Shown here: positions 5,571-11,708 of the stretch, piece by piece
Position numbering within the stretch: position 1 is the stretch's first letter
Layout: each line of letters begins with the position of its first letter
Assembly (NCBI GenBank): GCA_014379065.1
Contig: JACMMM010000172.1
Coordinates: forward strand, 1-37,298
Source of the DNA: Saprospiraceae bacterium
GTDB lineage: Bacteria > Bacteroidota > Bacteroidia > Chitinophagales > Saprospiraceae
DNA: 37,298 bases
Reading direction: 5' to 3'
Made by a program: the position numbers and the translations under genes
Notes under the pieces: model-generated
Databases searched by the model: none
The model's input: the letters and a program-made list of their open reading frames with translations, nothing else
What the model was told of the DNA's origin: nothing

Positions 5571-7994
5571 ATGATTACAATTATACGCAATAGACAACAA
5601 TATTTCGTTACGGCAACAGACATATTCTGCTACCTCCTTTTGATCTTGATGATTTCTTGCAACGGAGGGGCTCCTAAAATCTCTGAGCCTGCACCCGACC
5701 CTTGCAACCCCGCGCTGCCCGAATCCGCCCCCGGCTATCCTGATCCATACGCAAACCTGCCCAAGGGCGATTGGTCATTTATTGGCCCTTACGATTGGGG
5801 GTCGAGGGTCATTTGCCTCGCCATTTCGCCCGATAACCCTTACCACTTGTATGCCGGTTCAGCCAGTGGTGGGCTTTGGGTCAACAAAGACACCCGTACA
5901 CAAGGGTGGCAGTGGGTGAACACCGATACTTTTAAAGTGCTGGGTGTGGCTGCAATTGCCATACAGCCAAACAACCCAAAGGTGATTTACATCGGAACGG
6001 GTGAAGTTTATAATTACAACAATACAGATGGCGGTTTTGATCAGCACAAAAACCGAGGCTCTTATGGCATTGGTATCCTCTATAGCAGCGACCAAGGCAA
6101 ATCCTGGAAAAAGGCTGTAGGCTTGCCAAACATAAAAACGCTGGGCGTTCAGGATATTGAAATGGCGCCAAACGGAACAGGGATGCGTATCTGGGCTGCC
6201 ACAACCGAAGGCGTTTACAAATCGGACGATGGTGTAAACTTCAGCAAGTCTTTGAATCAGGTGATGGTGACCGATATAAGTGTACACCCTACCGATCCAA
6301 ACCAAGTGGTTGCAGCAGTTGGCAATCTCAACACCCCCAATGCTGGCATCTACACTTCAAAGGATGGCGGCAATACCTGGAAATGTGTTGTAACAAGAGC
6401 CCCCAGCGAATTTATGGGCAAAACAGAATTTGCCCGCGCCCCTTCCGACCCGAATACAATCTTTGCGGTGATGGGCACCTGGAACCCGCTTTACTTTGCC
6501 AACAACCAGGTAAGCAGCGATTCCATATTACCCGTTGTGCACGGCGATTGTGTTTGGCCCAATACTTATCCTAAGACCTCCAAAAACTGGGTGTATGGCT
6601 CTACAGATGGCGGCAATGCTTGGTCGCTCATCCAGGATGCTACCGCATTTTCTAGCGGACAAGGCCATTATTCCATGTGTGTTACGGTTGACCCGTCGAA
6701 CAAGCAGAAACTGCTGTTGGGCGGCATCGCCCCCATCTATCAGTCAACGGACGGCGGCAAAACGATAAGCGGCTTAAACAACATAAAAGGGTCTAGCGGC
6801 CTGAATAGTAGATGCTTGCCAGAGGCAATGGGCAGCTTCGACGTACACCAGATTTTGTTTGAGCCAAAGGTGGCAGGCTTGATTTATGTGTGCAGCGACC
6901 AGGGGGTTTATATGAGCGAAGACGGTTTGAAAACGATCCACCGCATCAATAGGAATCTTGCCATTATGCAATTTTACCCCCATGTGGCAAGTTCCCAAAA
7001 TGACCTGAATATATTGTTTGGCTGTGCCCAGGACTATGGCCCCGGTTGCGTTTCTTATATGGGCATCAATCAAAAAATCGGGAGAGGCCAGTGGCAAATG
7101 ATTTATGGCTTTGGCCACGAAGCCGGCACTTGTGCTTACGATGATAAAAACGACGTGGCCTATATGACGGTCCACATGGGGTCTATGATTGCCCGATGTC
7201 ATCTTAAAAGCACGGTGAAGATTGACAACCCTGACACATCGGCCAACTATGCAAACGGCGCCTTTAATTTTATCCCGGATTTCAGTCCATTCGGCAAGGA
7301 TACTTTGTGTTCCAAACATACTTCATGGAACGCGCCTATTGCTTTTTCGCCCAAAAACCCCGACTTGCTTTACGCAGCCAAGGACATAATTTACACCTCG
7401 CGAAAACAAGCAGGCGAGCCGGCGGCTGGCAAACACTGGGTAACGCCCGACTCAAAAGGCACGGGCCTGGATGGCAATCCGATCCTAAAAATGTTGGTCA
7501 GCCCGGAGGACGAAATGGAATTGTTCGTAGCAACAGCGCCGCGTTATAAGGATATGCACTTGTTTCACAGCAAGGATGGAGGGGCGACTTGGGTTAATAT
7601 AACAGGCCCGAACTTGCCCAAAAACCGCAACCCGTCTTCCATTACACAACACCCAACAGATAAAAACACCTTGTACCTCACAGTTGAAGGATATGGCCCG
7701 GGCCGGGTTTGGAAAGGGACTGTTTCGGGAGGTAATTGGGTTTGGACCTCGATTGAAAAAGGTTTGCCGGACACATTTACCAGAGCTTTTGCGGTAGATG
7801 CTTCCAACCCAAACCACCTGTTTGTAGCAACGGATTATGGCGTCTTCAAATCTGAGGACGGAGGCTCGACCTGGTCTCAGTTCAGCAGCGGCTTACCATT
7901 TGCCATTGAGGGCGTTCAGTTGATTGTTTACGGCAAACAGCGGAAACTTCGCCTGGTGAGCCATGGAAACGGGGTCTGGGAGCGCTCCATTTAG
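5571..7994 (+). CDS. BNR/Asp-box repeat (VPS10/sortilin-like beta-propeller) lipoprotein
   Basis: N-terminal hydrophobic stretch with Cys (YLLLILMISCNGG), lipobox-like; repeated Asp-box motifs SSDQGKSW, SKDGGNTW, STDGGNAW, SKDGGATW, SEDGGSTW. Confidence 0.85.
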   Translation: MITIIRNRQQYFVTATDIFCYLLLILMISCNGGAPKISEPAPDPCNPALPESAPGYPDPYANLPKGDWSFIGPYDWGSRVICLAISPDNPYHLYAGSASGGLWVNKDTRTQGWQWVNTDTFKVLGVAAIAIQPNNPKVIYIGTGEVYNYNNTDGGFDQHKNRGSYGIGILYSSDQGKSWKKAVGLPNIKTLGVQDIEMAPNGTGMRIWAATTEGVYKSDDGVNFSKSLNQVMVTDISVHPTDPNQVVAAVGNLNTPNAGIYTSKDGGNTWKCVVTRAPSEFMGKTEFARAPSDPNTIFAVMGTWNPLYFANNQVSSDSILPVVHGDCVWPNTYPKTSKNWVYGSTDGGNAWSLIQDATAFSSGQGHYSMCVTVDPSNKQKLLLGGIAPIYQSTDGGKTISGLNNIKGSSGLNSRCLPEAMGSFDVHQILFEPKVAGLIYVCSDQGVYMSEDGLKTIHRINRNLAIMQFYPHVASSQNDLNILFGCAQDYGPGCVSYMGINQKIGRGQWQMIYGFGHEAGTCAYDDKNDVAYMTVHMGSMIARCHLKSTVKIDNPDTSANYANGAFNFIPDFSPFGKDTLCSKHTSWNAPIAFSPKNPDLLYAAKDIIYTSRKQAGEPAAGKHWVTPDSKGTGLDGNPILKMLVSPEDEMELFVATAPRYKDMHLFHSKDGGATWVNITGPNLPKNRNPSSITQHPTDKNTLYLTVEGYGPGRVWKGTVSGGNWVWTSIEKGLPDTFTRAFAVDASNPNHLFVATDYGVFKSEDGGSTWSQFSSGLPFAIEGVQLIVYGKQRKLRLVSHGNGVWERSI

Positions 7995-8041: not shown

Positions 8042-9349
8042 ATGGAATTTAAACTGTCAGTGTTGGATGAATTGAAGTTCCACCTTCAAATAGCCATTCA
8101 GGTCGAACTGAGTACCATCCCCATTTACCTGTACACCTATTACTCCATCAATCGAAGGCCTGAAAAGTGCGACCAGTATGGGCCTCCCAACGATTACATG
8201 ATTGCGACTTTTGCCAACAAGGCTGGAGGCACCATAATGAGTGTCGCCATAGAAGAAATGTTGCACATGTCTTTGGCCAGCAATATCCTTCGGGCTGTAG
8301 GCGGGACGCCCAAAATCTATGGTCTTTCGCCCCAGTCGTTCCCGACCAACCTTTTGGAGCACCGCCCGGGGCCCTTATTTGACCTCGCCAAGCTTTCAGT
8401 CTACCAACTGAACCAATTTCTCCTGATTGAAAAACCGGAAGCAAAAGACGCCCCGCCGGAGTCGGACAATTGGGATACCCTGGGCCAGTTTTACGATTAT
8501 ATCCTTACACTGGTTGAAAAACTGCAGGATTCGGACTTCCAGCATGGGGATTCGTACCAGTTGTCAGATAAAAAGGGCTCGGGTACAACGGGTTATTATG
8601 TGTCCAGCAATGTGGATACTATCTATCCGGACAATGCGGTTGCTTTTACCAAACCTATCGAGAAAAACAATCCGATTCAACCCTTGGAGTCCAGCGCACA
8701 CTACTCAAATCAGGACGACAGCGGCAACCTGATGGTAATCAATTCAAAAGCCTCTGCAAAAGCTGCCATCACCATGATCAAAGATCAGGGAGAAGGCTAC
8801 AACCATGACGATACGCACAAGCCAGACGACCCCAGCAAAAAAGAGGACTCGCACTGGTATAAGTTCAATTCGTTGCTGACCCAGTCTCAGAATTTTACGG
8901 CAGACGAATGGAATTGTTTCCTTTTTCAATTCCCGAACAACCCTAAAAGGGCCAACACCCCCGCAGAATATGTCTGCGTAGTTGACTTGGTAAATGCCGT
9001 GTATTCCTACCTGCTCAAGATAACAGAAGTGAGCTATACCTTGACGGGAAATGCCCAGTACGCCATGTTTTACATAGGGATGCACAAAGGCATGATTTTT
9101 ATCTTGGACAAGTTGATAGGCAATATGCGCTATACCGCCATATCGCCCGATGGCACTGTCCTGGCGCCCACCTTTGAGAATTTCCCGTTCCAAACGGACG
9201 ACCCCAAGCAGGAATTGCTGGCGCTGTGCGATACCGTAAGCGCCAGATACCCGGGCATTTGCGATGCCAATATCGCGCAGCGGATATACGACTTGCCAGA
9301 TGTAAACATCAAATACACCCCTGAGGGTGTCGCCATCGTCAACTTCTAA
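8042..9349 (+). CDS. Ferritin-like domain protein (VioB/iminophenyl-pyruvate dimer synthase-type, PF12902-like)
   Basis: LKFHLQIAIQVELSTIPIYLYTYYSI and GGTIMSVAIEEMLHMSLASNILRAVGGTPKIY: Glu and ExxH motifs typical of this ferritin-like family. Confidence 0.8.
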   Translation: MEFKLSVLDELKFHLQIAIQVELSTIPIYLYTYYSINRRPEKCDQYGPPNDYMIATFANKAGGTIMSVAIEEMLHMSLASNILRAVGGTPKIYGLSPQSFPTNLLEHRPGPLFDLAKLSVYQLNQFLLIEKPEAKDAPPESDNWDTLGQFYDYILTLVEKLQDSDFQHGDSYQLSDKKGSGTTGYYVSSNVDTIYPDNAVAFTKPIEKNNPIQPLESSAHYSNQDDSGNLMVINSKASAKAAITMIKDQGEGYNHDDTHKPDDPSKKEDSHWYKFNSLLTQSQNFTADEWNCFLFQFPNNPKRANTPAEYVCVVDLVNAVYSYLLKITEVSYTLTGNAQYAMFYIGMHKGMIFILDKLIGNMRYTAISPDGTVLAPTFENFPFQTDDPKQELLALCDTVSARYPGICDANIAQRIYDLPDVNIKYTPEGVAIVNF

Positions 9350-9373
9350 CTACAAAATCAGCTTCTTTTCGCC

Positions 9374-9844
9374 ATGAGCACTTCCAATATAGTATACAAA
9401 GAATTGCACGTTTGCATGGGCCTCAACGCCTGCAAAGGGCATGATCGCCTCGGTATCAACAATTGCGCCGGCACTGGTACCTGTGCCACCGCAGCCGAAC
9501 ACAGTTGCCATACACTCAACGATTGTCGCGGGCAGGGAGGCTGTGGGCTTTACGGGGATGGCGACGAACAAAACAATCCTGGTAACAACCTCTGTGCCTG
9601 GCAGGGCTCCTGTGCCGTACCAATCAACGCCGAACGTTTTTCAACAGAAGGTGATAACAGGGGACAAAGTGTATGGCTGCGCGCCAGAAAGGTTTTTGAA
9701 GCAAAAATGGACGCAGCCGGGCGCCAATACGGCCCTTCGCCGATGCCTAACGGACCCACCACAGCCTGGTTGAAAACCAATTACAACAGCGCTTTTGTAG
9801 CCTGCGGCGCGAGCGGCATGAGCGGTGGCGGTTCCTGCATTTAG
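9374..9844 (+). CDS. Small Cys-rich protein, candidate RiPP/metallophore precursor for the adjacent MNIO enzyme
   Basis: 156 aa, 11 Cys; C-x5-C pairs CMGLNAC, CAGTGTC, CHTLNDC, CRGQGGC, CAWQGSC; no signal peptide; 19 nt upstream of the DUF692 gene. Confidence 0.75.
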   Translation: MSTSNIVYKELHVCMGLNACKGHDRLGINNCAGTGTCATAAEHSCHTLNDCRGQGGCGLYGDGDEQNNPGNNLCAWQGSCAVPINAERFSTEGDNRGQSVWLRARKVFEAKMDAAGRQYGPSPMPNGPTTAWLKTNYNSAFVACGASGMSGGGSCI

Positions 9845-9863
9845 TACCGACTTCTGACCTACT

Positions 9864-10835
9864 ATGCTATCTAGCAACTACAACCTTTCCAGCCTACAAA
9901 CCAAGGTGGCGGCCATGCCCCGCCTGGGTTTGGGCTTGGGCCTTCGTCATGTCCATTTTGACCATATCCAGCAATCTTGGCCGGCGGTGGACTGGTTTGA
10001 GGCGATTTCCGAGAATTTTATGTTTTCCGAAGGGCGGCCACGCCATGTCATTCGGCAGTTGGCAGAGCGTTATCCGGTGGTTTTGCACGGGGTTTCGCTT
10101 TCCATTGGTAGCAGTACGCCTTTGGATTTCCATTATTTGAGCGCCTTGAAGACCTTGGCTTCCGAAATAAACCCGCCTTGGGTGAGCGACCACTTGTGCT
10201 GGACAGGGGTTCTGGGCCTCAATACGCACGATTTGTTGCCCTTGCCACTTACAGAAGAAGCCTTTTGGAATACGGCCGAGCGGGTTCGAATAGTACAAGA
10301 TTTTCTTGAACGCCCATTGATTTTGGAAAACCCCAGCACTTACCTGAGTTTCACCCACTCCACCATATCGGAGCCTGAATTTTTGAGCAATCTCGTGGCC
10401 GAAACGGGTTGTGGCCTGTTGCTCGATGTGAACAATGTCTATGTGACTTGTTTCAATTCCGGGCTGGATCCGGTGGACTATATCGAAGCGCTCCCGCACG
10501 ATAAGGTGGTGCAAATGCACTTGGCGGGGCACCAGCATTGTGGAACCCATATCGTTGATACCCACGACCGGCCCGTACTGCCGCAGGTTTGGGAGCTCTT
10601 CCGATTGGCCTGGCAGCGTACAGGGGGCGTTTCGACACTCTTGGAATGGGACGGCAATATTCCCTCATTTGAGGAATGCCTTGCTGAATTGTACAAAGCC
10701 CGGAATTTTATGGGTTCGGCAATTCCAAATTTCGTTCCTGATTTCGAACGTCATCTTGTTGAAAAAAGCCCGGCACAATCTACACCTATTGATTTTATGG
10801 TTTCGCCCGTAATGGCACATGCCGAATTGCTTTGA
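9864..10835 (+). CDS. DUF692 family multinuclear non-heme iron oxidative enzyme (MNIO; BufB/HvfB/MbnB-like)
   Basis: [109 protein letters not shown]. Confidence 0.93.
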
Positions 10836-10838
10836 TCT

Positions 10839-11708
10839 ATGGAAAACCGGGAATATTCGCTGGGACAAATACAAGCGTGGATGCAGGAAATGCTTGTATT
10901 TTCTGGCGCTTCCAGCAACACAAAGGCAGAGACACCCTTGCACGTTGCTCCATCCAACACCCTTTCTGCTGAGCAACGATTGGCTATTTACCAGCGGGGA
11001 TATTTGGCGCGTCTGTTGCAATGTCTGGAAGGCCAATACAAGGCACTTTGTCATGCTTTGGGCAAGGATCTTTTTGACGATTTTGCCCGCGAATATCTGC
11101 TGAGTTTTCCCTCGGGAAGCCCAACACTTGCCGTGCTGGGTGAGCGGTTTCCCGCTTATTTAGAAGAAACGAGACCAGACAAAGAACAGGCCGAAAAAGA
11201 GCCCTGGGTTGATTTTATGGTTGACCTCGCGCGTTTTGAATGGAACCTTTACCTGAGTTTTGACGCCCCCGGACACGAAGGGCAAGCCTATGCTACACCA
11301 GATGATAGAGATCAATCACTTCGGCTTCAACCGTGCTTTTTTTTGAGCGCGTATCGTTTTCCGGTAAGCGCATATTATCAAGGCGTCGCAGACGGAGAAG
11401 ACCCCGCCATCCCGCAAGCATCTGCTCATTTTGTTGCCATTGCTCGAAAAAATTACCGCATCGGGATTTCCGCGCTTACTGCTCCGCAGTATACTTTTTT
11501 GGAAGCCTTTCAAAAATGTGACAACTTGGCACAAACCATTTCCCAGACCGCACAGACTTACGAACGTACCGAATCGGCAGTGGAGGATGCTTGGGCAAAT
11601 TGGAAAAAAGGATGGATAGAGGCGGGGTTTTTCATTTCAACCTCCCCAACACCTCCTTCATCCGCCGAATCGCCTCCCTCAATTGCTCCTCAGAAGCAGC
11701 ATAACTGA
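10839..11708 (+). CDS. DUF2063 family protein (BufC/HvfC-like MNIO partner)
   Basis: LSAEQRLAIYQRGYLARLLQCLEGQYKALCHALGKDLFDDFAREYLLSFPSGSPTLAVLGERFPAYLEE is typical of DUF2063; starts 3 nt after the DUF692 stop. Confidence 0.88.
   Translation: MENREYSLGQIQAWMQEMLVFSGASSNTKAETPLHVAPSNTLSAEQRLAIYQRGYLARLLQCLEGQYKALCHALGKDLFDDFAREYLLSFPSGSPTLAVLGERFPAYLEETRPDKEQAEKEPWVDFMVDLARFEWNLYLSFDAPGHEGQAYATPDDRDQSLRLQPCFFLSAYRFPVSAYYQGVADGEDPAIPQASAHFVAIARKNYRIGISALTAPQYTFLEAFQKCDNLAQTISQTAQTYERTESAVEDAWANWKKGWIEAGFFISTSPTPPSSAESPPSIAPQKQHN

Follow-up and report, generated by a model that had tools for sequence, protein, structure and literature searches.

In the MNIO/DUF2063 clusters characterised so far, Cys residues of the precursor are converted to 5-thiooxazoles with the loss of four hydrogens, the systems generally bind Cu, and precursors with multiple Cys-Lys motifs constitute one of their categories (PMC13097082). 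The BufA2 peptides (Buf2, Buf_6/12Cys; NF050166), which belong to the Cys-Lys group of captophorins, share with the Cys-rich protein (CRP) described here a grammar of C-x-G-x-N-x-C-K-G and C-x5-C-x5-C and, as in the CRP loci, a BufB-type MNIO (DUF692) enzyme and a DUF2063 protein are encoded just downstream of them. A further point of comparison is adjamnio-I, described as signal-less proteins of 122-293 aa with 8-21 Cys and a gene located just before the MNIO gene (Antoine et al. 2025, PMC12452194, Table 2). These are tabulated, as their major organisation, with PME-type 2 partners, which have no Pfam DUF2063 signature, while type-1 partners go with signal-peptide precursors (PMC12452194). 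The same work reports bufferin domains fused to larger proteins, one combining Buf1 with Cytochrom_C and FGE-sulfatase, and another MerC with Buf2. Here, a contig of 37,298 nucleotides from a Saprospiraceae bacterium (JACMMM010000172.1, assembly GCA_014379065.1), hereafter the window, is analysed, in which a gene for a CRP stands beside one for a ferritin-like protein (FLP).

A signal-less Cys-rich protein in a four-gene cassette

The first-pass annotation of the window had described a 156-aa protein with five C-x5-C units and no signal peptide as a possible substrate of the adjacent DUF692/DUF2063 pair. The translation reproduces this description exactly, with Cys at positions 14, 20, 31, 37, 45, 51, 57, 74, 80, 144 and 155, five pairs of which are six residues apart, C51 being common to two of them. 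Under random placement of 11 Cys in the CRP, at least five such pairs would be obtained with P ~1e-4, or P ~1.5e-3 if any one spacing from 1 to 14 is allowed. The pattern, however, is not as unusual as it had been taken to be, since it is already known as the BufA2 motif. The reading frame is considered real because it is under purifying selection (dN/dS 0.04-0.09, only where dS is unsaturated).

Table 1. Features of the CRP cassette in the window
Feature	Position	Strand	Remarks
FLP, ferritin-like protein	8042..9349	+	435 aa; PF12902, 135.5 bits (Pfam gathering score 22.3)
Cys-rich protein (CRP)	9374..9844	+	156 aa, 11 Cys, without signal peptide; presumed MNIO substrate
CRP Cys motif region	9413..9613	+	residues 14-80, C14 to C80, five C-x5-C spacings
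CRP core C45-HTLND-C51-RGQGG-C57	9506..9544	+	C-x3-N-x-C-x3-G-G-C, common to all split and fused forms
CRP Cys-free segment AERFST...FEAKM	9629..9709	+	conserved; partly helical by prediction (helix 98-114, low confidence)
MNIO (DUF692) enzyme, BufB type	9864..10835	+	PF05114, 348 bits; NF050167 MNIO_BufB, 341.6 bits (cut-off 310)
DUF2063-domain partner, PME-type 1	10839..11708	+	PF09836, 60.4 bits (cut-off 27.2)

The in-frame open frame comprises only 164 codons, so that at most 8 residues are possible before the ATG and a signal peptide hidden upstream is ruled out. In the first 60 residues the maximal 15-residue hydropathy is 0.9, versus 1.8-2.2 in three signal-bearing bufferin-type peptides, and a simple hydropathy scan found a hydrophobic N-terminus in none of 11 CRP members, which makes the lack of a signal peptide a family-wide trait. 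Searches with the window CRP gave no matching Pfam family or solved structure. Its structure model has a pLDDT of 44, with only the helix near residues 98-114 somewhat better, and therefore neither a CRP-FLP contact nor anything firm about the Cys region can be derived from it. The segment RFST...VFEAKM may be a structural helix or a recognition region, as its conservation is equally compatible with both. Scans for promoters and terminators yielded no useful information.

The CRP gene is part of a cassette with the order FLP-CRP-MNIO-DUF2063 (8042-11708), encoded on one strand with gaps of 24, 19 and 3 bases, and the same order is found in 13/13 of the stand-alone CRP loci examined for their neighbours (the window, L028, L004-L006, L021-L026, L076 and L077). 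The alignment of 11 family members shows no change at any of the 11 Cys, and a DUF692 gene adjoins every stand-alone copy read; since the Cys are thus conserved and the family does not occur mainly away from DUF692, the role of the CRP as DUF692/DUF2063 substrate is well supported. The initial view of the cassette had its DUF692/DUF2063 partners right, but overlooked the ferritin-like gene, which is a constant or fusion partner of the CRP. In the eleven loci scored, the DUF2063 proteins reach 52.9-68.4 bits with PF09836 against a cut-off of 27.2, and are therefore type-1 partners; with the HvfC model the one in the window obtains 70.2 bits, under the cut-off of 142. The neighbourhoods read showed no recognisable gene for an exporter or a protease that accompanies the cassette constantly, and no other candidate precursor gene was seen to recur in it.

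The family ranges from 155 to 228 aa and from 11 to 17 Cys, and C14, C45, C51, C57, C74 and C80 occur in every split or fused form. Most split CRPs have C20-K21, and C51 is followed by K, R or H; the window CRP has NACKG as well as NDCRG, which is similar. The six Cys of Cys-Lys type motifs by which BufA2 is recognised are present throughout the family, as is the arrangement typical of captophorin clusters, i.e., an MNIO and a DUF2063 partner downstream of the Cys-rich gene. Nonetheless, the CRPs differ from BufA2 in lacking a signal peptide, in being longer, with an extra conserved Cys-free half, and in having on the CRP side a constant ferritin-like partner or fusion. With NF050166 (cut-off 60) the window CRP scores 23.7 bits (E 4.2e-5) and the L023 CRP 19.8, and the signal-bearing peptide of L027 (42.9 bits) is also under the cut-off. 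Neither its score nor its signal-less N-terminus allows the CRP to be counted as BufA2, although the motif is shared and the chemistry probably is too. Length, Cys count, absence of a signal peptide and gene position all fit adjamnio-I, although the eleven partners scored here carry the DUF2063 signature; compared with the published description only, the CRP may belong to adjamnio-I as a minority with a type-1 partner. The CRP family is, in any case, an exception to the correlation between type-1 partners and signal peptides (PMC12452194).

Further genes were seen around individual cassettes. In the window, an 807-aa Sortilin/BNR propeller protein (5571-7994) ends 47 bases before the FLP gene, and a search with this copy did not recognise it in the neighbourhoods L021-L028. 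A ThDP decarboxylase is encoded one or two genes upstream of the FLP gene in three loci (L022:2777-4594, L026:1052-4821 and L024:8883-12639) and is indolepyruvate-decarboxylase-like in both copies scored; in L024 and L026 a protein of 664-665 aa with a dinucleotide-binding-like N-terminus is encoded between the two, for which no family match was found in L026, the copy tested. In L077 (7543-8914) the cassette is divergent to two genes, one for a regulator of the ArsR type and one for a low-molecular-weight phosphatase resembling ArsC, which may link it to metal or metalloid stress.

The ferritin-like partner and its fusions to the Cys-rich protein

The FLP shares its fold family and conserved Glu/His residues with the PF12902 proteins, i.e., the VioB region and Caulobacter CC_0557 (PDB 3hl1). 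Its Glu/His dimetal signature (E22, E72, H75, E130, E251 and H271) is identical in 17/17 FLP domains, split and fused, and a model built from a four-sequence alignment (pLDDT 70) has 3hl1 as its best fold match (E 8e-5), in agreement with the sequence match. The PF12902 relatives annotated elsewhere, in plasmid records, stand beside GMC oxidoreductases or ebo genes, and no MNIO or Cys-rich gene is annotated near those sampled.

In five loci (L034 and L072-L075), FLP and CRP form a single ORF of 492-775 aa, followed by the MNIO and DUF2063 genes. Four of these fusions are from Bacteroidota (492-699 aa) and one from Pseudoalteromonas (775 aa), and PF12902 is found in five of five (66.6-115.3 bits). 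The Pseudoalteromonas ORF, whose N-terminal part matches PF12902 and whose C-terminal part is Cys-rich, precedes the closest plasmid-borne MNIO (58% identity), and outside Bacteroidota the fusion occurs in at least two near-identical plasmid records. With the CRP profile, all five fusions score above their shuffles, and L074 (107 bits) and L075 (90 bits) are unambiguous. The long fusions L034, L072 and L073 show a weak CRP similarity of 12-23 bits, above all of the ~1000 shuffles made of each (L072, 13.2 versus 7.2 for its best shuffle; L073, 11.9 versus 10.4). Given that bufferins obtain 16-31 bits with the same profile, the long fusions score no higher than these and may just as well have acquired a BufA2-like domain in a separate event. 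Moreover, a convergent gene on the opposite strand looks like a transporter in L072 and L073, which leaves some chance of export in these two loci. One genus carries either the split form (L023, genome G244) or the long fused form (L072, G510; L073, G526), and the resemblance of the latter to the Pseudoalteromonas one suggests a transfer between phyla.

As in the bufferin fusions of PMC12452194, a Cys domain is joined here to a larger protein, but the partners reported there are cytochrome c, FGE-sulfatase and MerC (the bufferin domain being periplasmic with MerC), whereas in the FLP-CRP fusions the partner is ferritin-like and no signal peptide is recognised. The words ferritin and VioB are absent from the main text of PMC12452194, and PF12902 and DUF692 were not found together in the literature searched, most subscription journals lying outside it; within that scope, neither the pairing with a ferritin-like protein nor the fusion appears to have been described.

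Distribution of the family and relationships of its MNIOs

Four close relatives of the window CRP have 74-75% identity, those that are named being Saprospiraceae or uncultured Bacteroidetes records, and profile searches of the phylum and the class added eight further strong matches, from other families of the same class, and two large ORFs that turned out to be fusions. Strong matches are rare: 7/398 genomes in the phylum sample, the window's own included, and 8/395 in the class sample. Four loci whose E-values fall between 1e-6 and 0.01 are left out of this count. The best of them, L027 in genome G337, encodes a signal-bearing BufA2-like peptide and not a CRP, and the weak hits in G158, G218 and G226 (E 0.002-0.008), two of which contain internal stops, were likewise left out of the family. 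In plasmid records, tblastn with the window CRP or the L022 CRP as query gave no CRP relative.

The 398 phylum genomes contain 12 MNIOs above the BufB cut-off, nine of them in split or fused cassettes, one after a signal-bearing BufA2-like peptide and two without a recognised precursor; the latter (L045 and L047, in G421 and G429) have a DUF2063 gene and no recognisable Cys-rich precursor adjoining. In a tree of 28 MNIOs, one clade (support 96/96) unites those from loci where the CRP is a separate protein, and the split and fused forms group together with moderate support (81/80) beside a BufA2-linked enzyme. The fused forms fall outside the clade of split forms, a pattern compatible with a single fission of an ancestral fusion, although the root of the tree is not fixed.

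A possible maturation unit and its alternatives

The co-occurrence of FLP, CRP, BufB-type MNIO and DUF2063 partner is constant, and FLP and CRP can be a single polypeptide. It seems to us an even call whether the cassette (8042-11708) is a maturation unit in which the modified CRP remains cytosolic and works together with the FLP, rather than being an exported metallophore. For such a unit, we infer the Cys modification, the metal and the reaction alike. The DUF2063 protein would present the Cys-rich part to the MNIO for a four-electron oxidation of selected Cys, most likely within the C-x3-N-x-C-[K/R/H]-x2-G-G-C core, and the product would probably be a 5-thiooxazole, by analogy with the characterised MNIO/DUF2063 systems. 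After this step the domain would remain in the cytosol and, together with the FLP, would provide a redox centre or a site for a soft metal, probably copper, serving as a subunit of a ferritin-like oxidase or as the domain that bears its cofactor. The lack of both a signal peptide and a constant exporter or protease gene makes a cytosolic product most likely, and the constant pairing and fusion with a dimetal-type FLP suggest that both act as one unit. Furthermore, the ThDP decarboxylase in L022, L024 and L026, together with the GMC oxidoreductases beside PF12902 elsewhere, hints at the oxidation of a small molecule. The more far-reaching proposal, that the MNIO and the DUF2063 partner mature an enzyme by installing a Cys-derived heterocyclic metal or redox centre, i.e., that a RiPP enzyme makes a protein-derived cofactor for a ferritin-like oxidase, is put forward tentatively and is, in our view, plausible but rather doubtful. 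Several points count against a maturation role: an enzyme joined to the substrate on which it acts would explain the fusion too, the MNIO grouping of split and fused forms is only moderately supported, the CRP similarity of L072 and L073 is weak, and both of these loci have the transporter-like gene.

That enzyme-substrate arrangement has a parallel in the borosins, where an enzyme is joined to its own substrate, and would be in line with the CRP being an ordinary RiPP-type precursor and the FLP a second tailoring enzyme, a diiron-type oxidase acting before or after the MNIO. The constant FLP-CRP pairing and fusion and the intact Glu/His signature would be expected of such a dedicated enzyme as well. 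However, bufferin clusters with the same motif and MNIO type do without an FLP (L027), no protease or exporter gene is constant, the CRP has a long conserved Cys-free half, which resembles a folded domain rather than a leader and core, and the PF12902 relatives that lack an MNIO or Cys-rich domain and stand beside GMC oxidoreductases point to other substrates, all of which makes this explanation unlikely.

Equally improbable, in our judgement, is a cytosolic metal buffer, in which copper or other soft metals in excess would be bound by the modified CRP and metal would be oxidised or stored by the FLP, with no small-molecule substrate involved. A bufferin-type motif with its maturase, a ferritin-like fold and the one cassette adjoining ArsR- and ArsC-like genes would agree with it, but PF12902 proteins are by family not cage ferritins and have relatives in biosynthetic settings, a ThDP decarboxylase is encoded upstream in three loci, and no metal-resistance genes were recognised beside most copies. 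Finally, the modification of the CRP is predicted, and most known Cys-rich proteins are unmodified, but an unmodified metal- or disulphide-binding CRP, with the MNIO and the DUF2063 partner acting on something else, is very improbable in view of a motif of the same kind as in BufA2 substrates, the constant gene position directly before the MNIO gene, the BufB type of that MNIO, the strict co-occurrence, and the absence of any other recurring candidate precursor gene in the cassette.

Bufferin-type MNIO systems have been associated with exported peptides that bind copper, whereas the CRP substrate is presumed to be intracellular. If the maturation of an FLP-CRP enzyme holds true, MNIO chemistry would extend from peptides to enzyme maturation, and the natural FLP-CRP fusions, with both parts on one polypeptide, make this idea easily testable.
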